Below, piece after piece: positions 1 through 41,124 of a stretch of DNA of 41,124 bases. The notes below the pieces were generated by a model that made no database searches, was not told the DNA's origin, and saw only the letters and a list, made by a program, of their open reading frames with translations. Origin of the DNA: a virus. A program made the translations under genes and the position numbers. The stretch lies in the IMG/VR virus record IMGVR_UViG_3300044960_000180, positions 1 to 41,124 of that record. One strand, written 5' to 3'. How positions within the stretch are numbered: position 1 is the stretch's first letter; the number at the start of each line of letters is the position of its first letter.

Positions 1-154
1 ATCATATCGGATTTCGTGCAACACGGGTTTAAAATGCCTTTGAAACAAGGGGGATTTTTTCACCATGTTCTTGCACTCATCAAACACCACCCGAGCCTGC
101 TTCATGGAGTTTGCGAGCATGTATACCCGCGCCCCGTTCTCCCCATCCTTGGAC
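1..154. repeat. Terminal redundancy, left copy (matches 40971-41124)
   Basis: These 154 bases recur at the right end of the window. The only difference seen is T at 28 against C at 40998, a silent AAA/AAG lysine change in the terminase gene. This is what an assembler leaves at the ends of a circular or circularly permuted phage genome, so the non-redundant genome is about 40,970 bp. Confidence 0.95.
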
Positions 155-549: not shown

Positions 550-883
550 CCACGGCCACCACCTCCGATACTTTTTTGTCGGAAGCAGGAGTTAATTTCA
601 GTTCCGCCAGTAGTTTCCGCTGCTGTTCCACGACTTTCAACACTTTATCCACCGATTTGTTATCCCGATACATTTCCTGTGAACCGTTCTTGAAAAGCTC
701 AACCACACCGCGTTTTTTTAAGTCGTCTAGGAGCTCATGTTTCATCTGTTCGAGAAGCGCCATGCTATCGACCAACAAAATAGTTCGTTCGTTGAGGTTG
801 CTTTCTTGCTGTAATTCGTTTATGATGATGTTGAAAAGATCCTTTGCGGCTTTTCGCCGGATGATCGGTTTTGGCTTAACCAA
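530..883 (-). CDS. terS: Terminase small subunit, P27 family-like
   Basis: Small DNA-recognition subunit of the packaging terminase, 117 aa. It is mostly helical and charged, and an early stretch NIIINELQQESNLNERT is typical of P27-type subunits, which then continue with a long helix ending in an acidic tail. A TTG start at 883 follows a good GGAGGTG ribosome site. It lies between the HNH endonuclease gene and terL, the standard order of HK97-like phages. The family call rests on size, position and general pattern. Confidence 0.8.
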   Translation of the reverse strand: MVKPKPIIRRKAAKDLFNIIINELQQESNLNERTILLVDSMALLEQMKHELLDDLKKRGVVELFKNGSQEMYRDNKSVDKVLKVVEQQRKLLAELKLTPASDKKVSEVVAVDEFEEF

Positions 884-6033: not shown

Positions 6034-8373
6034 TTATTTCATTTTCAATTTCACAGCGACCACTCGTTTCTGTACGTTCTTATGGGGGTTTGTTTTCCTC
6101 ACACTGGTACGAGCTTTGTTGCCTTCCTGTTCAACTTCAACCCATCCTCTTTCTGCCCAATCTTTCCGTACTCTTGGGAGATTGAACCCGAGTTCATCTG
6201 CAGCTTTCTTTAAAACAGTGGGATAAATACAGAGAACTTGCGGCCCTGGGTCTACCCAGCCAAAGGATTTCCCTTGGGGCGGTTCTTCGCTGAAATGAGC
6301 CTCATGAACGGCAAACCAACTCATCAAAGCGTCATAGGCTCGCTTCCCGTCGTCAGCGTCGGACTTCTTCTCCAACTGATCCAGGATGGTCTGTCCTATT
6401 TCTAATGCGTCTCGATAAGCCTTCTCCTCTGATGAACCGAAGAACCAATGATTCATGTAGGAATCCCCCAAAAGGATTGCAGCGGTGATCGAAATATGGC
6501 TGTCGATGTTATCCGGGCACCGTTTTTTCAATTCATTCCGCATCGTCTTAAAATCATTCTTGAACGTGTCGGGGTCTTTTTTTAACTCTTCGATCACCCG
6601 TCGGATAAATTCCGGTCCCGACACCCCGTAAGCTTCCGCGGAGACCACATGCATCTGACTAGCCAGATCTTCATCATCAATCGGTTTCCCGTAGATTTCC
6701 AACACCCGAGACTTAACACCGCCGATTGTGCTATCCGAGCTGATCGGTTCCTCCCCGGTAGCTATCGCCAGACTGTTCCAGGTATGTTCTTCTTGAAGCC
6801 CTCCCTCCTTTGTCGCTCGCCCCCGGCTTTGACCACTTCCCAGCATGTAGACGATGCTTTCCACAAATCCCTGCCGGTCTCCAACCACTTGCCGCTCATC
6901 GATCCCGATCGGTAAATCGGAGTAGATCGCCGCCCGTCGTTCCAGAGCGTTACGCGTTGAGTTGAATGAAGTCATGGTCTCTTCCGGGTTGCCCCAAACA
7001 GAGAGAGCCACCTTCAACGCCGCCGTTTTTCCGCCCCGCGTCATTCCGAATGGATAGACCAGGCCGTTTCGGTGTCCGATCACCCGCAGAAGCGGGGAGG
7101 CGAAAGAGCTGGCCAGTAATAACCGGGCTATCGGAAATCGTAGAATCGGACGGACATTTTCCACCCACTCATCCAACTTCCCCTTCTCCTGATAGCCCTT
7201 TGTAATCGAGCCGAAAGCATCCAGCTCAACCCCCTCTTCCGCCCCTGGGAGGAACCGATCATACTGACCGTCCACCCAACCCATATGACTAACCGAACGG
7301 ATCTCCGGAATGGTCTCTTGGTTCTCTGCTTCAAAGGCTTCCAGGTATCCCACCACTTTAGCTGCATTGGAACTGGAGATCAGTGGCCCGTAGTCGGCCA
7401 GTTTGACGATGGAACTTTTATTCAAGAGCGTGGACCGGTCGGCAATCAAAGTACGCCACCGATTTCTTTGAAAAAAAGCCAACTCTAACTTCTCTTTGTT
7501 CGTATCCACATTGATCAATCGGCGGGTCAGGATCATCGGCATAGAGGCAACTTCGTTTACATTTCCATCCGCGTTGAATTTGAGAATCCTTTTTTCTTGA
7601 ACCCGATATCCCGGAGGTGCCTGCAACCCTTTGGTTGGGATTCCTTCAAAAAATGTGTCCAGTGTGGGAGCCTTTTCCCCTTTTTTCGCCGCCCGGAGAT
7701 GCGGCTCTTTTTGTTTCAGTGCGGTTTCAAAGTCACGCAAATTCAGCTTCCGTTTGAGGTTATCTTTCAGTTCCGTTTTTAGCCGGAGAAAATCTTCCGC
7801 AGACTTTTCCTTCAGCGTACGGAAGGCCTGGATGTTCTCTTTTTCAAAGAGGATCTTGGCATCCTGGGCTTCCATCGCCGCCTTTGCCGCCGTTTCCGCC
7901 TTTTCCAAGCTTTCTTCTTCCGGGTCCGGCGTCCCAATGTTAATCGGACTGGTGATCACCTCCCAGAGCTCACACCCTTTGCAATACTCCCCACCGGTCA
8001 GATCCCACACGCGTTGGCAGGTAACCGGTCCCGCATCTTCCAGTGCGTGAGTCAGTTTCTTGTCCGTCTCCGCCTCGGAATATCCGGGATAGGGTTCACT
8101 CCATTCATGAGCCAGCTCCTCCCCATCCTCACACCGGCCCAGAATCGACAGCATGGCGTGCCATTCCGGTTCCGGTAGTGTCTCCGCATCTTCTTTACAG
8201 TGCCGCATCCAGGCGCAGCCGGTTTGGATCGGATCGATCCGGGCAGGGGGGAAATCTCCCCCGCCCGAACGATCCCTTTCTCTTCGGGTTCGTTTGGGTA
8301 ACTCAATGAATTGTTTCGCGATCTCTTTCGGATCGTATCGTGGGACGGAGAATGCGTACGTCAACGGGATCAC
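6034..8373 (-). CDS. DUF927-type replicative helicase (primase C-terminal half)
   Basis: A 779-aa protein. Cysteines near residues 53, 59, 119, 131 and 134 (CAWMRHC ... CQRV ... CKGC) may bind an iron-sulfur cluster or zinc. A helical linker at about 155-235 follows, then a DUF927 ATPase with Walker A GMTRGGKTA near 443-451 and downstream SDLPIGIDE. The only start upstream is GTG at 8373 with AAAAAGG directly against it, a poor ribosome site. The preceding frame overlaps by 71 bp and, if joined by a +1 step at 8341-8344, gives a normal prim-pol to helicase transition (VRILRP-RYDPKEI). It probably belongs to one polypeptide with the next gene. Confidence 0.85.
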   Translation of the reverse strand: MIPLTYAFSVPRYDPKEIAKQFIELPKRTRRERDRSGGGDFPPARIDPIQTGCAWMRHCKEDAETLPEPEWHAMLSILGRCEDGEELAHEWSEPYPGYSEAETDKKLTHALEDAGPVTCQRVWDLTGGEYCKGCELWEVITSPINIGTPDPEEESLEKAETAAKAAMEAQDAKILFEKENIQAFRTLKEKSAEDFLRLKTELKDNLKRKLNLRDFETALKQKEPHLRAAKKGEKAPTLDTFFEGIPTKGLQAPPGYRVQEKRILKFNADGNVNEVASMPMILTRRLINVDTNKEKLELAFFQRNRWRTLIADRSTLLNKSSIVKLADYGPLISSSNAAKVVGYLEAFEAENQETIPEIRSVSHMGWVDGQYDRFLPGAEEGVELDAFGSITKGYQEKGKLDEWVENVRPILRFPIARLLLASSFASPLLRVIGHRNGLVYPFGMTRGGKTAALKVALSVWGNPEETMTSFNSTRNALERRAAIYSDLPIGIDERQVVGDRQGFVESIVYMLGSGQSRGRATKEGGLQEEHTWNSLAIATGEEPISSDSTIGGVKSRVLEIYGKPIDDEDLASQMHVVSAEAYGVSGPEFIRRVIEELKKDPDTFKNDFKTMRNELKKRCPDNIDSHISITAAILLGDSYMNHWFFGSSEEKAYRDALEIGQTILDQLEKKSDADDGKRAYDALMSWFAVHEAHFSEEPPQGKSFGWVDPGPQVLCIYPTVLKKAADELGFNLPRVRKDWAERGWVEVEQEGNKARTSVRKTNPHKNVQKRVVAVKLKMK

Positions 8374-13057: not shown

Positions 13058-13169
13058 TTGAATCACCTCCTGTGGCTGTCTCATCAGCTGAGGAGCGCCA
13101 CCTCCCCAGGACCGGGGTTGCCCCCGGTTTCGACTATGAGGTACAATGAAACCAACCACTCTTCTTTCT

Positions 13170-17971: not shown

Positions 17972-18211
17972 ATGAACGATGAAATCAAAGGCATGCTCCA
18001 GGCGATCATTGGCCGATTGGACGAGCAGGGAGCTGAGATGAAAGCGATGCGAGAGGAAATGAAGGCAATACGTAAAGAAATGGCCACCAAGGAAGACATC
18101 CGCCGTCTTGAGACCCAGATCGGGGACATATCGGAATCCACCAACTATCTGGTCAAGAAAAGCGCCTATCAGGAAGACCGTATTAAGTCGCTGGAAAGGA
18201 GAGTACCATAA
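17972..18211 (+). CDS. Small coiled-coil protein, 79 aa
   Basis: Strong AGGAGG ribosome site before the ATG. Nearly the whole protein is a heptad coiled coil rich in Glu, Lys and Met (EQGAEMKAMREEMKAIRKEM). It precedes the integrase by 79 bp in the same direction. No known recombination directionality factor was recognised, but a role in regulating integration is worth testing. Confidence 0.6.
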   Translation: MNDEIKGMLQAIIGRLDEQGAEMKAMREEMKAIRKEMATKEDIRRLETQIGDISESTNYLVKKSAYQEDRIKSLERRVP

Positions 18212-18290
18212 AAACTCAGTGCCGAGCTTGAAGGCTCCACAAGCACCCCCGCGAAGAGATTCAGACTATCGGAAAGGTCAGGGAAAATAT

Positions 18291-19973
18291 ATGAAAGTCG
18301 CCGTTTATGCCCGCGTCTCCTCTGAAGATCAGCAGGAACGGGGCACTATCGAGAATCAGCTAGAGTTTGCGCGTAAATACTGTGAACTCCATCAATCTGA
18401 AGTCGCGGCCTGGTATAAGGATGATGGTGTTACAGGAACCATCCCATTAGAAGATCGTCCAGATGGAGTCAAGGTTCTGGCGGATGCAAAGGCAAAGAAA
18501 TATGAACTTCTTCTCATCTATCGCTTGGATCGCTTAGGACGATCCGCTCGCACGATCCTAAACGCAGTTCATGAACTAGAAAGTGCGGGGGTAAAGATAC
18601 GCAGCATGAAGGAACCGTTCGATACCGGAGACCCGAGCGGCCGGTTTCTCCTGACGATTCTCGCCGGGGTTGCGGATCTAGAACGGGAAACCATTCTGGA
18701 GCGGATGTGGTACGGGGCAAACCGTGCTGCCCGATCAGGGAAATGGTTAGGCGGGATTGTTCCATATGGATACATGGTGAACGCAGAAGGATTCTTAGAA
18801 GTCAGTGAAGAGCCCCTTCCAGGCTTAGATATGAGTGAAGCGGATGTAGTTCGGTTGATCTACCGCCTCATCGCTGAACAGCGGTATTCCACCATTCGGG
18901 TGGCAGACTATCTGAACTCCCTGGGCGTGCCACCTTCTTATAAAAAAGATGGCCGAAAGGTAAAACGCGGGAAACGAAAAGAGAATACGGCAGGTGTTTG
19001 GAATCCCGGCCGGATAAGAAATATGATAGTGAATACCACTTATAAGGGTATCCACCAGTATGGAAAGCGAACCAAAAAACAACGGGAGATCATCACCCGG
19101 GAAGTTCCCGCAATCATAACGGAAGAACAGTGGGCTAAAGCACAGCAGATACTGAAAGATAATCGGATAGAGGCTGATCGCAACGCCCGTAGAAAATACC
19201 TACTTCGTGGTCTCATCAAGTGTGGGATCTGTGGGCTCACCTATATTGGTGCAGCACATCCCAGTTACGTCCGAAAAGACGGTGTCCGAAAGTTGAAAGC
19301 GTACTATGTTTGCAACGGAAAACATGCTTATCGCGGTCCTCTCTCAGGCAAATGCACGGCTAAAAATTTGCCACGAGATTGGGTCGAAGAAATGATTTGG
19401 AATCAATGTGTGGAATTTATACAGAATCCGGGCGATGCCATCAAAGAACTGGCTGCCTCCATAGAACAAACACAGTCCCTTCGCTCTAACTATGAGGAGG
19501 AACGAGAAGTAATCCAAAAAGGGATAAGGGAAAAAGAGCATGAGAAGCAAAGAATCTTGGATCTGTATCGCCGGGAAGTAATCAGCGACTTGGATGTAGA
19601 GGAACAGATAATGAAAATCCGGCATGAAACCGATCATCTCAAAGTACAGCTGAAATCGTTGAATGAACAAATAGAAGCAGAAAAGGGATTAGAACGAGAT
19701 TTTAACACGGCTGAAGAGCTACTTTCTAATCTCAAAGCGAAGCTTGATAATAACCCCACCTTTGAAGATAAGCGTGATATTGTAAAAACCCTTGTAAAAG
19801 AAATCATTGTCTACACCAAAAATAACGACCGTGGAAAACCGGAAGCAAAAGTATCGGCACGTTTTCGTTTTGATGCCGCAGATGTTACTCGCACGGATGT
19901 CCGTGAAAATAACAATTACGGCATTTTCATTGTGAGAGTAGCTAATTTACGTGGAAGAAGACCCTTCTTTTAA
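18291..19973 (+). CDS. int: Large serine recombinase (phage integrase)
   Basis: A 560-aa integrase. The catalytic domain opens with VAVYARVSSEDQ carrying the nucleophilic serine (residue 9 or 10) and continues with LLIYRLDRLGRS and GRFLLTILAGVADLERE. The recombinase domain follows, then a zinc ribbon (CGICGLTY ... C ... C) and a long coiled coil (about 380-500) that controls integration versus excision. The ATG at 18291 is the natural family start. It joins attP to attB without host factors; attP could not be fixed without the host sequence. Confidence 0.95.
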   Translation: MKVAVYARVSSEDQQERGTIENQLEFARKYCELHQSEVAAWYKDDGVTGTIPLEDRPDGVKVLADAKAKKYELLLIYRLDRLGRSARTILNAVHELESAGVKIRSMKEPFDTGDPSGRFLLTILAGVADLERETILERMWYGANRAARSGKWLGGIVPYGYMVNAEGFLEVSEEPLPGLDMSEADVVRLIYRLIAEQRYSTIRVADYLNSLGVPPSYKKDGRKVKRGKRKENTAGVWNPGRIRNMIVNTTYKGIHQYGKRTKKQREIITREVPAIITEEQWAKAQQILKDNRIEADRNARRKYLLRGLIKCGICGLTYIGAAHPSYVRKDGVRKLKAYYVCNGKHAYRGPLSGKCTAKNLPRDWVEEMIWNQCVEFIQNPGDAIKELAASIEQTQSLRSNYEEEREVIQKGIREKEHEKQRILDLYRREVISDLDVEEQIMKIRHETDHLKVQLKSLNEQIEAEKGLERDFNTAEELLSNLKAKLDNNPTFEDKRDIVKTLVKEIIVYTKNNDRGKPEAKVSARFRFDAADVTRTDVRENNNYGIFIVRVANLRGRRPFF

Positions 19974-20075: not shown

Positions 20076-20672
20076 TTAGTAACCTGTAAAACTGTAAGTC
20101 AAAGTTCCATTAGTTGACTTCAATCGCAACTCCATAGTCTCTAGTTGGACTTGATTTTCATATGAGGTAGGTGACTTTAAATACTCATCATGTATCGTTT
20201 TAATTTTAGGATCATCCGCAATATCAAGAGCGTTAATAATATTGATAAAAGTGTCAATTTCAATTGGGCCCACATAGGCAATAGAGCGTAAAGTATTGTC
20301 TTTTTTGTTCAATACGAGATTAAATATTGTTGGCGGATAATTTCCTGAGTCAAAGTCCTTATACAAGCTAATGAAATTTGCTTTTTGATCTTCTTCGATA
20401 ATTAATTTATCTGTAATTGGTAAAGGTTCTCTATCACTTATCATTGCTATTGCTTCGTAATCTGTAACAAATTCATCTACGTCTACAGGAAGTCTTTTGT
20501 AATCCAGGTTTTCAACTTCTTCTTTATTTTCACCCTTTACGTTTGCGGTTACCGTTTCTAATTCATCTTCAGGCACAGCAGGGTGGCTCAACATAGAGAA
20601 AACCGTTGCAATAATTAAAAATACTGCGAAGCCTACTCCACATCCAATCAGCCATTTTGTATTCACTCGCAT
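20076..20672 (-). CDS. Membrane-anchored secreted protein, 198 aa
   Basis: A short basic N-terminus and a membrane span at about residues 7-28 are followed by an acidic linker (VPEDELETVTANVKGENKEEVENLDY) and a soluble domain, so the bulk is probably outside the cell. No cysteine fits a lipoprotein signal well. AT-rich. Function unknown; lysogenic conversion or surface exclusion is possible. It lies alone after the integrase, facing it. Confidence 0.55.
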   Translation of the reverse strand: MRVNTKWLIGCGVGFAVFLIIATVFSMLSHPAVPEDELETVTANVKGENKEEVENLDYKRLPVDVDEFVTDYEAIAMISDREPLPITDKLIIEEDQKANFISLYKDFDSGNYPPTIFNLVLNKKDNTLRSIAYVGPIEIDTFINIINALDIADDPKIKTIHDEYLKSPTSYENQVQLETMELRLKSTNGTLTYSFTGY

Positions 20673-22048: not shown

Positions 22049-22252
22049 TTATTTCTCCTCCTTTTTCATATGTTCATCATACCCTGTAAGCCGGATCATC
22101 CCGGCCCTGGTGACAAGCCAAACCTTCTCGGACTTCCTCGCTTCGTCTTCGTGGAACTTTCCCCGGTTGCACCACTGCGTGACTGTGTTCGGTGACAATC
22201 CCCATTTTTTCGCTGCTTCCCGTGATGAAAAAACCTCGTGGAGAGGGTTCAT
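22049..22252 (-). CDS. Small MerR/Xis-type HTH protein, 67 aa
   Basis: Begins MNPLHEVFSSREAAKKWGLSPNTVTQW, a winged-helix excisionase/MerR-like fold, with CNRGKFHEDEARKSEKVWLVTRAGM forming the wing. It may regulate its operon, or act as the excision factor for the integrase, although most serine integrases use other partners. Co-transcribed with the membrane protein gene. Confidence 0.7.
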   Translation of the reverse strand: MNPLHEVFSSREAAKKWGLSPNTVTQWCNRGKFHEDEARKSEKVWLVTRAGMIRLTGYDEHMKKEEK

Positions 22253-22478: not shown

Positions 22479-22934
22479 ATGAGAACTTTAACACAAGAAG
22501 AAGCAGACCAATTGATGGCACTTATTAAAGTGTTAGAAGCAACGCAACAAATTCAGTTTCCACAAAAAGGAGAAACAATGCAATTAGATGCACATAGTAC
22601 CGAAGGGCGAATAAAATTTATTATTGATGTCAATCGTGGTAAAATCAACATCAAAAAGTGTACGTACCAGACAAGATACAATCGATCAATACCGCTACTA
22701 CGAATTGATATCGAAGGCGGGATTCATACGAACCCACCACCACTTCGTGAAAAAGTACCTTGCCCGCATATACATATTTATCGTGAAGGGTTTGGTGATA
22801 AATGGGCCTACCCCCTGTCTTCGAAAATTAAAACTAACCCTTCTGATCTTGTTGCTGTGCTGAGCGATTTTTTAGAGTACAATCATGTTGAAAGACGGCC
22901 TCCTATTGTATACCAAGGAGATGGGTTGGTATGA
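22479..22934 (+). CDS. DUF6978-like protein, partner of DUF1828/1829 gene
   Basis: A 151-aa protein. N-terminal helix LTQEEADQLMALIKVLEA is followed by beta-rich LDAHSTEGRIKFIIDVNRGKINIKK, then HIHIYREGFGDKWAYPLSS and a C-terminal helix. I recall this pattern as DUF6978, usually found directly before a DUF1828/1829 gene. The stop overlaps the next start by 4 bp. AT-rich compared with the structural genes. Function not established; a toxin-antitoxin or defence pair is possible. Confidence 0.55.
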   Translation: MRTLTQEEADQLMALIKVLEATQQIQFPQKGETMQLDAHSTEGRIKFIIDVNRGKINIKKCTYQTRYNRSIPLLRIDIEGGIHTNPPPLREKVPCPHIHIYREGFGDKWAYPLSSKIKTNPSDLVAVLSDFLEYNHVERRPPIVYQGDGLV

Positions 22935-23701
22935 GCCAATCAACAAATGATTTGTTAAATTCTTATATCAAATGGCTTAAAGATAATATCTTTATACGTG
23001 AACTGCACGATGATGTTATCGAAATCACAACTCCATTCTTGGATCATCATAATGATCATTTGCAAATTTACGCAATCAAAAGTGGGGATAAAATCAGAAT
23101 CACAGATGACGGATATGTTATTACCGATTTAATGATGTCAGGGGTAGATATAAAGTCATCACGCAAGCGTCGCGAGCTTATGCAGGTAATCTTGAACGGA
23201 TATGGGGTCAAACTTTCTAACAATGAACTATATCTTGAAACGACCAAGAAAAATTTTCCGCAACATAAACACATGTTACTTCAAGCAATGCTTGCTATTA
23301 ATGATATGTTCATGACAGCACGCGAAACTGTAGCAGGGATTTTTTATGAAGATGTGGAACAATTCCTCATTCTAAACGAGATCCGATACACAGATAACAT
23401 AAGTTTCATTGGTAAAAGTGGTTTTTCCCATAAATTCGATTTTGTCATACCCCATTCCAAGGCTGCTCCTGAACGTATTATACAAACTATAAACAATCCA
23501 ACTAGAGACAAAGCTGAAAACTTATTATTTTCTTGGAGCGATACCAGGGAAACACGAAAAACCAACTCTACTCTTTACGCTTTTCTAAACGATAATGAGA
23601 AAAGTGTTAACGAAGAAGTAATAAATGCCTTAACTCATTACGAAGTAACACCAGTATTGTGGTCACAAAGGAAAAAATACGCTAGAGAATTGGCAGCTTA
23701 G
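22931..23701 (+). CDS. DUF1828/DUF1829 protein
   Basis: A 256-aa protein. The N-terminal DUF1828 part contains DVIEITTPFLDHHNDHLQIYAI and DKIRITDDGYVITDLMMSGVD, which together are typical of the family. The C-terminal DUF1829 part has SHKFDFVIPHSKAAPERIIQTIN and an RIIQTI...LFSW core resembling restriction-like folds. Prophages and islands often carry it with a small partner upstream, as here. No experimentally proven role is known to me. Confidence 0.75.
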   Translation: MSQSTNDLLNSYIKWLKDNIFIRELHDDVIEITTPFLDHHNDHLQIYAIKSGDKIRITDDGYVITDLMMSGVDIKSSRKRRELMQVILNGYGVKLSNNELYLETTKKNFPQHKHMLLQAMLAINDMFMTARETVAGIFYEDVEQFLILNEIRYTDNISFIGKSGFSHKFDFVIPHSKAAPERIIQTINNPTRDKAENLLFSWSDTRETRKTNSTLYAFLNDNEKSVNEEVINALTHYEVTPVLWSQRKKYARELAA

Positions 23702-23708
23702 AAAGAAT

Positions 23709-23742
23709 GAAAAAAGCCGAGGGTGCGCACCCTCGGCTTTTA
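23709..23742. terminator. Shared bidirectional terminator
   Basis: AAAAAAGCCGAGGGTGCG-CACCCTCGGCTTTT forms a long stem with T runs on both strands. It ends the plus-strand DUF operon and, from the other side, the minus-strand CRISPR transcript. Confidence 0.85.
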
Positions 23743-23752
23743 CTATTGTCCG

Positions 23753-24114
23753 GTCTCAATTCCTTATAGGTAGCTTCTAAACATGAATTGAAGATGTTGG
23801 AATATATCCGAGAACGCGTTTCAATTCCTCATAGGTAGCTTCTAAACGATTTAGGGAACGGCCTGAAAGGGAAAGGCCACGTCGTGTTTCAATTCCTCAT
23901 AGGTAGCTTCTAAACTGAAAAAGTGGATGCAAGGTCACAGCGAGTGGATGACGTTTCAATTCCTCATAGGTAGCTTCTAAACATGGATTCCGAGACGTTG
24001 GGAGACGACAGACTCCCAAGTTTCAAATCCTCATAGGTACGTTCTAAACTTAACACCGAGAAACCGGAAGAATCCATTATCTTTGTTTCAAATCCTCATA
24101 GGTACGTTCTAAAC
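23753..24114 (-). CRISPR. Phage-borne CRISPR array, six repeats and five spacers, no cas genes
   Basis: Six 30-bp repeats start at 23753, 23818, 23886, 23953, 24020 and 24085. Spacers are 35, 38, 37, 37 and 35 bp. Repeats 2-4 are identical on the plus strand (GTTTCAATTCCTCATAGG...GCTTCTAAAC). Repeats 5-6 are a second variant (T8 to A, GC at 21-22 to CG). Repeat 1 has two changes, as expected of the distal degenerate end. Read on the minus strand the repeat ends ATTGAAAC, the crRNA handle of many type I-B and III systems. Transcription would start near 24149 and stop at 23709-23742. No cas gene is in the genome, so processing would need host Cas proteins. Confidence 0.95.
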
Positions 24115-24236
24115 CCCATTTAAAGCCCGCCACAAAGCCATTTCTCTTCTCAACCACTATACCAAATATTCGCCCACAAAGTAAAGCCCCATCCGCCTAT
24201 TCCCCGCTACATAGCCAAATCCACACAAAAACGATT
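24115..24236 (-). promoter_or_regulatory. CRISPR leader with putative promoter
   Basis: On the minus strand a TATAGT -10 lies at 24156-24161, about 42 bp before the first repeat, with only weak -35 matches 17-19 bp further upstream. No gene is present in the stretch. The leader assignment follows from repeat orientation and the degenerate repeat at the other end. Confidence 0.5.
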
Positions 24237-24280
24237 GTCGTCGATCCCCAGGGGTTTTTGCGCTACTGGGGATCGACGAC
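24237..24280 (-). terminator. Late-operon terminator, 15-bp stem
   Basis: GTCGTCGATCCCCAG and its exact complement flank a 14-base loop. On the minus strand the stem is followed by AATCGTTTTT. It comes 27 bp after the endolysin stop and separates the late operon from the CRISPR array. Confidence 0.75.
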
Positions 24281-24307
24281 ATGTTTCGTGTATCTATATA
24301 TTTGATT

Positions 24308-24934
24308 CTACCGCTTAATATTCACCGTATCCCCCACTTTCACAGCCTCTTCAAGCCACTTGATCGCACTTTCCTTCTTTGAGAAAGCGTGCAATTGCTT
24401 CCCATTCAACTGGACACGGATGAAATTGTCCGTCGATGGGGCAGGTGCGGGGTCACTTGCTGCCAACACCTTTTTATAATCAAATGCAGGACATGTCGTC
24501 GATGCACCCGGCATCTCCCGATGTCCTCGAATGTACTTTATAGAAGGAACCTCTTTGCGCACAAACGGAACAAGCGCCCTCAGCGCTCGTTCTTGCTCAG
24601 TGGTTGGCTTCTCCTTCGTGAAATCGCCCGTCAAGCAGATCCCCAGCGAATACGGGTTGGCTATGCCTACATGTGCCCCCTGCTCATCGTTGCTCAGACA
24701 GCGCCTTGTGGTGCCGTCTGCTTCGATTACCCAGGTATAGGCGATGTGTCGCCACCCCCTGGACTGAACATGAAAGCGTGCATAGCCTTCTGCATTTGCA
24801 CCGGCTAAACTCCGCCGGACACCGCTATGATGGATCACCAAATGTGTGATCCCCGATACCGGACGAAGAATGGGACCCCGTTTGGAGGCCCGTGGTAGGC
24901 TTTTGCGTACGTCTTTGTACTTATAAAGGCTCAT
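24308..24934 (-). CDS. Endolysin: N-acetylmuramoyl-L-alanine amidase (PGRP type)
   Basis: A 208-aa lysis enzyme. The amidase_2/PGRP domain spans residues 20-150: HLVIHHSGV with the zinc His, WRHIAYTWVIEADG, GAHVGIANPYSLGICLTGDF and RGHREMPGASTTCPAF with the second His and Cys ligands. After a Pro-rich linker (DPAPAPSTD) a 50-residue C-terminal domain resembles SPOR-like wall binding (FIRVQLNGKQLHAFSKKESAIKWLEE). It overlaps the holin gene by 4 bp. Confidence 0.92.
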   Translation of the reverse strand: MSLYKYKDVRKSLPRASKRGPILRPVSGITHLVIHHSGVRRSLAGANAEGYARFHVQSRGWRHIAYTWVIEADGTTRRCLSNDEQGAHVGIANPYSLGICLTGDFTKEKPTTEQERALRALVPFVRKEVPSIKYIRGHREMPGASTTCPAFDYKKVLAASDPAPAPSTDNFIRVQLNGKQLHAFSKKESAIKWLEEAVKVGDTVNIKR

Positions 24935-25326
24935 TGATGATCACCCTTTCCCCGCAGAACCTCTACGGCTTGTTGAATTTTCGGCGGAATCGGCACCCCG
25001 ATTCGACCAGAGTTTTCAATGATGCTCACCGCTTCGTTGGCCAAATAAAAGGCCACCGTTCCATCCCGGAACAGGTGGCCATCTCCCAGTTGTTGATCAA
25101 ATATGTGAGCAACCGCGACAATCCCGAAAATCATTACCTTTCGAGCGATCCCCCACAACCCCACCTCACTGTTCAACTTCCCTTCCTTCGCCGCTGCAAC
25201 AAAACCCGTTACATAATCAATCACGACAAATACAAACAACGTCTGCAATGCCAATGACCACCCTCCCCATAAAAAAGAGGCGGTTGCGCCGCCCACGCCA
25301 ATAGCCAACTTAATCAAGGTCTCCAT
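24931..25326 (-). CDS. Holin, phi29/TcdE-type family
   Basis: A 131-aa membrane protein with spans at about residues 8-28, 30-48 and 65-85, and the family segment FVVIDYVTGFVAAAKEGKLNSEVGLWGIARK. Holins form pores that release the endolysin. The strong ribosome site GGGAGGAG and the coupled endolysin gene support it. Confidence 0.9.
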   Translation of the reverse strand: METLIKLAIGVGGATASFLWGGWSLALQTLFVFVVIDYVTGFVAAAKEGKLNSEVGLWGIARKVMIFGIVAVAHIFDQQLGDGHLFRDGTVAFYLANEAVSIIENSGRIGVPIPPKIQQAVEVLRGKGDHQ

Positions 25327-39818: not shown

Positions 39819-41124
39819 TCAGCGCCCCATAATATCTTTAATCGAGATTACTTCAAGATTGGTTCCCCCAGGAGCCGTCATCAGCTTCATAACCTCTGTG
39901 TGGGCGTTTAACCAGGCTGCGAAACCATCTATTTTCCGGTACCGGCTTTGCTTCGTCGGCATCCAGTTCCCATTGCGATCCTCGACCAATTTCACATTGT
40001 TCAAATACCACCGAAACATCTTGTTCCGGTTGAATACCACTTTTCCGTCCAACAGGAGCTCCTTGATATCCTTAAGAGCCGGGCTGAGAGTGAGGGCTCC
40101 CTGCCGCACCACCTGTGTCTGAAACCCGTGGGCCTGCAGATCGGCCACCAACCGGAAAGCGTTGGCCGGATCGTAGGTGATCAGATCAATGAGATAGCGC
40201 TTGGACTGTTCTACAAACCAATCATACACAGCCTTGTAATCCACATAGTCCCCTCGGCAGATGGTTAGCAGTCCCTCCCTCTCCCATTCGCGATAGGGTA
40301 GCTTTTCATTGTCCAGCTCCACCTTTCGCCGCGGAATAAAGGAGTGAGACAACACAAAAACCCGCCCGTCATCCAATGGAAACTCCAGGCAGGCGGACGT
40401 AAAGTCTTCGGTCTGCGATAAGTCGAAACCGCCGATGCAGTTTTGGCCCTCCAGCTCGGACAAATCGATCATGTCCTTATTCCGCTTGATAATCTCGTGA
40501 TCGATAAATGAGAGTTCATCCGTTTGTACAAAGACATTCAGCCGCTTCGCGATGAAGTCAGCCCGCTCCGCCGGGATATGCTTCCGGGTATTCCACTCCT
40601 CGATCAGGGTATCCAAATCCAACGTTACACCAAGATTCGGGTTGGCTTTGACCCAGTTGGTCGGGTCATCGACATCATCCTCCTCATCAATCTCGGCCAT
40701 GAAGTAAAAGGATCGCTCATCTTGGATCACTCCCTCCAGCACGTCGGCCGCCTTCTCGTAGTAGTCCATGAGCGGACCGTCCAGCTGATACCCTGCCGTG
40801 GTGATATAGAGAATCAGCGGTTGCTGCCTGGCCCCGGTGCTGTTTTTGATCACGTTGATCAGTTTGTAATCCTTGTACTCGTGTATTTCGTCGAAAATCC
40901 CCAAGTGACAATTCAATCCATCCAACTTTTCGCTGTCAGAGGCTTGGGGCTCGATTTTGGAAAATGTCTTATCATATCGGATTTCGTGCAACACGGGCTT
41001 AAAATGCCTTTGAAACAAGGGGGATTTTTTCACCATGTTCTTGCACTCATCAAACACCACCCGAGCCTGCTTCATGGAGTTTGCGAGCATGTATACCCGC
41101 GCCCCGTTCTCCCCATCCTTGGAC
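39819..41124 (-). CDS. terL: Terminase large subunit, C-terminal part (5' end wraps to 549)
   Basis: Frame continues from the first part. The ATPase Walker B appears as LGIFDEIHEY and the coupling motif as ITTAGYQLDG, followed by the nuclease domain with GGFDLSQTEDFTS (first catalytic Asp), LITYDPANAF and YRKIDGFAAW (last acidic). The 154-bp end repeat duplicates part of this gene. The window's right end is not a true gene end. Confidence 0.93.
   Translation of the reverse strand, partial: SKDGENGARVYMLANSMKQARVVFDECKNMVKKSPLFQRHFKPVLHEIRYDKTFSKIEPQASDSEKLDGLNCHLGIFDEIHEYKDYKLINVIKNSTGARQQPLILYITTAGYQLDGPLMDYYEKAADVLEGVIQDERSFYFMAEIDEEDDVDDPTNWVKANPNLGVTLDLDTLIEEWNTRKHIPAERADFIAKRLNVFVQTDELSFIDHEIIKRNKDMIDLSELEGQNCIGGFDLSQTEDFTSACLEFPLDDGRVFVLSHSFIPRRKVELDNEKLPYREWEREGLLTICRGDYVDYKAVYDWFVEQSKRYLIDLITYDPANAFRLVADLQAHGFQTQVVRQGALTLSPALKDIKELLLDGKVVFNRNKMFRWYLNNVKLVEDRNGNWMPTKQSRYRKIDGFAAWLNAHTEVMKLMTAPGGTNLEVISIKDIMGR
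40971..41124. repeat. Terminal redundancy, right copy (matches 1-154)
   Basis: Second copy of the left end, with C instead of T at 40998. It should be removed when the genome is drawn as a circle. Confidence 0.95.

Follow-up and report, generated by a model that had tools for sequence, protein, structure and literature searches.

What is a CRISPR array doing in a phage genome that encodes no Cas proteins, and whose proteins could make use of it? The question is raised by IMG/VR record IMGVR_UViG_3300044960_000180, a stretch of 41,124 nucleotides that is called the window here and was analysed over its full length. A sequence-only reading had described six 30-bp repeats with five spacers of 35–38 bp in a complete temperate phage, had suggested that the array depends on host Cas proteins and had proposed that it arms the lysogen against rival phages. 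We consider it probable that what the phage carries is a cas-less array with a complete leader of the host type, guiding host type I-B and III-B Cas proteins against competing elements. The features that bear on this are collected in Table 1.

Table 1. Features of the window, with positions counted from its first nucleotide
Feature	Position	Strand	Remarks
Terminal overlap	1–154		153/154 identical to 40971–41124; closes the circle
Large serine recombinase (integrase)	18108–19973	+	
Protein of unknown function	20076–20672	-	Match (29% identity) downstream of tail genes, prophage G277
DUF6978 protein	22479–22934	+	PADLOC PDC-M24A, 188 bits; partner of PDC-M24B
DUF1828/DUF1829 protein	22931–23701	+	PADLOC PDC-M24B, 370 bits
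Terminator-like hairpin with T-rich tail	23712–23741	-	Distal end of the array, DUF1829 side; weak by shuffle control
CRISPR array	23753–24114	-	6 repeats of 30 bp, 5 spacers of 35–38 bp
Leader	24115–24236	-	122 nt from first repeat to palindrome; aligns with array leaders of Thermoactinomycetaceae and Paenibacillus
Promoter-like TTTACT-18-TATAGT, TG before second hexamer	24156–24185	-	Reads into the array; 9/12, weak by shuffle control
CRISPR-leader palindrome	24236–24281	-	16-nt arms, conserved loop; same element at matched host arrays
Endolysin (amidase)	24308–24934	-	Phage gene, leader side
Holin	24931–25326	-	Relatives in the G070 and G166 prophages
Terminase large subunit	39819–41124	-	Continues across the join; 1–549 encodes the other part

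The repeats and spacers are present as first described. The repeats start at 23753, 23818, 23886, 23953, 24020 and 24085 with a period of 65–68 bp, and the spacers between them are unique and of similar size (35, 38, 37, 37 and 35 bp). The repeat at 24085 is proximal to the leader, and the one at 23753 is distal and decayed. The other five are not all identical and form two uniform classes, with GTTTAGAACGTACCTATGAGGATTTGAAAC in the two leader-side copies and GTTTAGAAGCTACCTATGAGGAATTGAAAC in the three interior copies. A reversed-pattern control for the repeat gives 0 matches, so six near-identical 30-mers spaced as in CRISPR are far beyond chance. That the two copies nearest the leader share one variant would be compatible with one or more duplications of the first repeat as spacers were added, or with an exchange with another array. 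The repeat was found in no other IMG/VR contig.

The genome closes on itself, as had been claimed. The window ends overlap with one mismatch and both sides of the circular join encode parts of terL; on these two grounds the window is a closed circular phage of 40,970 bp. The array lies inside a virus genome with terminase, portal, tape measure, tail, holin and endolysin genes, and the large serine recombinase gene marks this siphophage as a temperate one. The array has the lysis genes on one side and the integrase gene on the other. The earlier placement between an endolysin terminator and a DUF1829 gene is right for the two flanking genes. The terminator is not where it was put: the hairpin beside the endolysin gene reads better as a leader palindrome, and the terminator-like hairpin from our scan sits on the DUF1829 side, where on the minus strand it would terminate the array transcript. 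The statement that no cas gene is present agrees with our screen, in which none of 30 window ORFs matched a cas model of PADLOC. The DUF6978 and DUF1828/1829 genes overlap each other and flank the distal end of the array; both members of PDC-M24, which PADLOC lists as a candidate anti-phage pair, are present. No relative of the DUF1829 protein was returned by an IMG/VR search, and no near-identical phage was found in the phage collection. In the early region, a type II hammerhead ribozyme is matched on the minus strand at 13070–13135 with 48.8 bits, against a gathering score of 37.

Upstream of the first repeat, the leader runs to a palindrome that is also found in possible host genomes. In Kroppenstedtia guangzhouensis (G004) and in genomes G010 and G008 this element has the form GTCGTCGAYCCCC-loop-GGGGRTCGACGAC. 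It occurs 12 times in the three genomes (G004 C1:167176, 344493 and 354329; eight sites in G010; G008 C1:166287), and all 12 copies precede an array or a lone repeat by 120–125 nt, compared with 122 nt in the phage. At the same tolerance no copy was found in these genomes outside such positions. The arms differ among copies yet remain complementary, a covariation which suggests that the palindrome is maintained by selection. Our literature search found no published description of the element. The promoter-like sequence lies within the leader; site numbers in both the promoter and the terminator scan are close to chance expectation for the region (shuffle control), so the argument for either is one of position and not of score. 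In G008 a single repeat with the leader palindrome (L094 ~7133–7162; G008 C1:166132) lies between chromosomal genes. No Cas6 match was found in G008, and the lone repeat may be a relic or a solitary repeat unit.

The compatible Cas proteins are encoded in what appears to be the host order. The nearest structural relatives found are prophages of the order that holds Kroppenstedtia, which we take to be Thermoactinomycetales; the genome samples comprised 10 genomes at family level and 42 at order level. The closest terminase is in G012 (78%), and the closest portal proteins are in prophages of G241, G070 and G166 (72–77%). When species genomes were scanned for exact copies of the repeat, hits came from K. 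guangzhouensis, several Paenibacillus, Defluviitalea and one Clostridiaceae MAG. The repeat of K. guangzhouensis, GTTTAGAACGTACCTATGAGGAATTGAAAC, lies within a locus of cmr2-6, cas6, cas8b, cas7, cas5, cas3, cas4 and cas1, that is, a combined III-B/I-B locus with a single Cas6. The phage repeats differ from it by 1–2 mismatches, and by 4 in the decayed copy. The phage thus shares its repeat with arrays beside cas genes, and the same repeat family and leader architecture next to I-B and III-B genes and a cas6 in one clade support the proposed dependence on host Cas proteins. In the regions compared, the other prophage relatives carry no array apart from one weak signal, and the array is therefore regarded as optional cargo. 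The weak signal, at L052:4255–4403 of a related viral contig, consists of three repeat copies with CRISPR-like spacing.

From this anatomy we infer a course of transcription, processing, interference and acquisition. In a lysogen or an infected cell, the leader promoter would give a precursor RNA ending at the hairpin of 23712–23741, and host Cas6 would cut it. The resulting crRNAs would join host type I-B Cascade/Cas3 and probably also III-B Cmr complexes, and once loaded they would direct these against rival mobile elements as additional guides. With a leader of host type, the phage array could also receive new spacers from host Cas1-Cas2-Cas4, and would then be an updatable memory travelling with the phage. 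The basis is one virus contig.

The competing elements that the window array might target would be named by its spacers. The five spacers gave no significant match to 50,697 phage records, 72,556 plasmids or the 42 genomes of the order, and spacers 1, 3, 4 and 5 (not 2), searched as back-translated patterns, gave none in IMG/VR. Against the window itself and the compared loci, nothing longer than 14 nt was found outside the array. For the window array, the proposed arming of the lysogen against rival phages is thus not borne out by these searches, and the targeting of rivals by it stays conjectural. Most CRISPR spacers have no known target, so that the null search speaks neither for nor against function. 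Several candidate matches were rejected. Spacer 4 matches G014 over 19 nt, and a spacer from the second phage described below (contig C14) has a match in G312; neither match extends over the spacer. The first Kroppenstedtia spacer shares with window 22049–22075 a run resembling a ribosome-binding site. With 258 queries made, the match of a Paenibacillus ehimensis spacer to window 565–593 (25/29 positions) is no more than marginal.

A second phage of the group also carries an array. Contig C14 (39.8 kb) of G012, a genome placed by the grouping used in one family with K. guangzhouensis, is a related phage with a cas-less array of 11 repeats, of a repeat family other than that of the window. This other repeat family also occurs elsewhere in G012, on contig C11 with 38 repeats and on contig C7, where it adjoins cas4, cas1 and a Cas6 match. 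The leaders on C14 and C11 share 258 of 260 positions, counted from the alignment, and have a palindrome of different sequence. On C11 a comM-like gene is followed by a copy of the C14 sigma-factor gene that an in-frame stop interrupts, and then by leader, array and trailer. Beyond these lie relatives of early genes of the window and, last, a gene that at its start matches the pilin-like end of C14. C14 has the same gene order if it is taken as circular. The C14 array is therefore probably internal to the phage; the contig ends have no overlap, and gene order is what points to circularity. C11 itself looks like a prophage remnant still holding its array. One C11 spacer matches a gene in a prophage-like region of K. 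guangzhouensis at 32/37 positions (E 4.6e-7 for a single query, with 258 queries in total), and this gene looks like one for a putative head-tail completion protein. The match lends indirect support to the idea of arming against rival phages. The C14 spacers gave only weak matches to phage records (E ~5), and a match of C14 spacer 10 to a C14 tail gene was rejected as out of frame.

The window array might instead be a captured relic, a host array that was acquired by recombination, gives no benefit, and is decaying and unused. Its decayed distal repeat and its spacers without targets fit such a history and count against a guide-supplying array, and the absence of the array from the compared regions of prophage relatives fits it too. 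A relic is harder to reconcile with a leader, a palindrome and a distal hairpin that are all present, and with two uniform classes among the other five repeats. The array also adjoins a candidate defence pair, and a second phage of the group has a leader-equipped array of another repeat family, both of which favor the supply of guides. We regard the relic as unlikely. Much the same anatomy bears on a decoy or RNA anti-CRISPR, in which the transcript would titrate host Cas6 or Cascade and shield the phage from host CRISPR, as Racrs do. Phage-encoded CRISPR repeats resembling those of the host do act in this way as solitary repeat units (PMC10651486). However, Racrs are single repeats without spacers, and the window has six repeats, five spacers of normal kind and a leader of the host type, built as a working array would be; this role is very unlikely.

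The remaining alternative is a chimera, in which a host array was joined to the phage during metagenome assembly. There is a single virus contig, and a near-identical IMG/VR relative spans the terminase/portal part only. Nevertheless the contig closes on itself, and phage genes flank the cargo slot on both sides, endolysin and holin on one and the integrase with the prophage-matched protein on the other. We give such an artifact the slimmest chance of the three.

An array that supplies guides from a phage without cas genes is of a known kind. In Clostridioides difficile, prophage arrays give the most expressed crRNAs in two strains and were proposed to block competing phages (PMC6079278). Like the window array they are cas-less, belong to temperate Firmicutes phages and accompany a chromosomal I-B system; they differ in order and repeat family and in having RNA evidence, whereas the window array is known from sequence and its spacers from searches that found no targets. 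The mini-arrays of the Saccharolobus portogloboviruses SPV1 and SPV2 target each other (PMC6858448). These are likewise virus-borne and cas-less, with a leader like that of the host, but they belong to archaeal chronic viruses and have 1–2 spacers with reciprocal targets, in contrast to five spacers without targets found in a temperate siphophage. Closest in setting are the mini-arrays of bacterial phages and proviruses from Faure et al. 2019, with host-like repeats and no cas genes. They are described as having 1–2 spacers and leaders that are absent or unlike those of the host, so that mini-arrays of bacterial phages could gain spacers only by recombination (PMC7099407, PMC6858448). Compared with these accounts, the window leader retains the palindrome of the host leaders, spaced as in the host.

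What is unusual is thus a preserved host-type leader in a bacterial phage, together with the G012 case, where the leader of the relative is 99% identical to one in the host genome. Provided that such arrays are active, phages would move CRISPR memory between cells and update it. A wider suggestion is that Thermoactinomycetales phages carry CRISPR memories updatable through host Cas1-Cas2, that decayed prophages leave their arrays behind as chromosomal arrays, and that C11 is such a hand-over. We put this forward tentatively, as possible but rather doubtful. C11 is an actual locus on which the change of a prophage array into a chromosomal one can be tested.

Contig C14 shows several further features. 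Spacers 4 and 8 of its array (L043) overlap on opposite strands, and so one gene, or two close variants, was probably sampled twice; a target of the two was not found. The contig carries a colicin-DNase/WHH toxin domain (L044:19123–19755) and a SUKH immunity gene (L044:18679–19113). A 516-aa protein on C11 (L145:1926–3476) has a start matching the pilin-like piece at the end of C14 (L043:1–240), and the C14 toxin gene is therefore probably split by the contig break. There is also an actin-like (ALP_N) gene (L043:15108–16052); together with a HerA-like match that is weak and falls under the Pfam cut-off (L043:12251–14821), it hints at a plasmid-like maintenance of C14.
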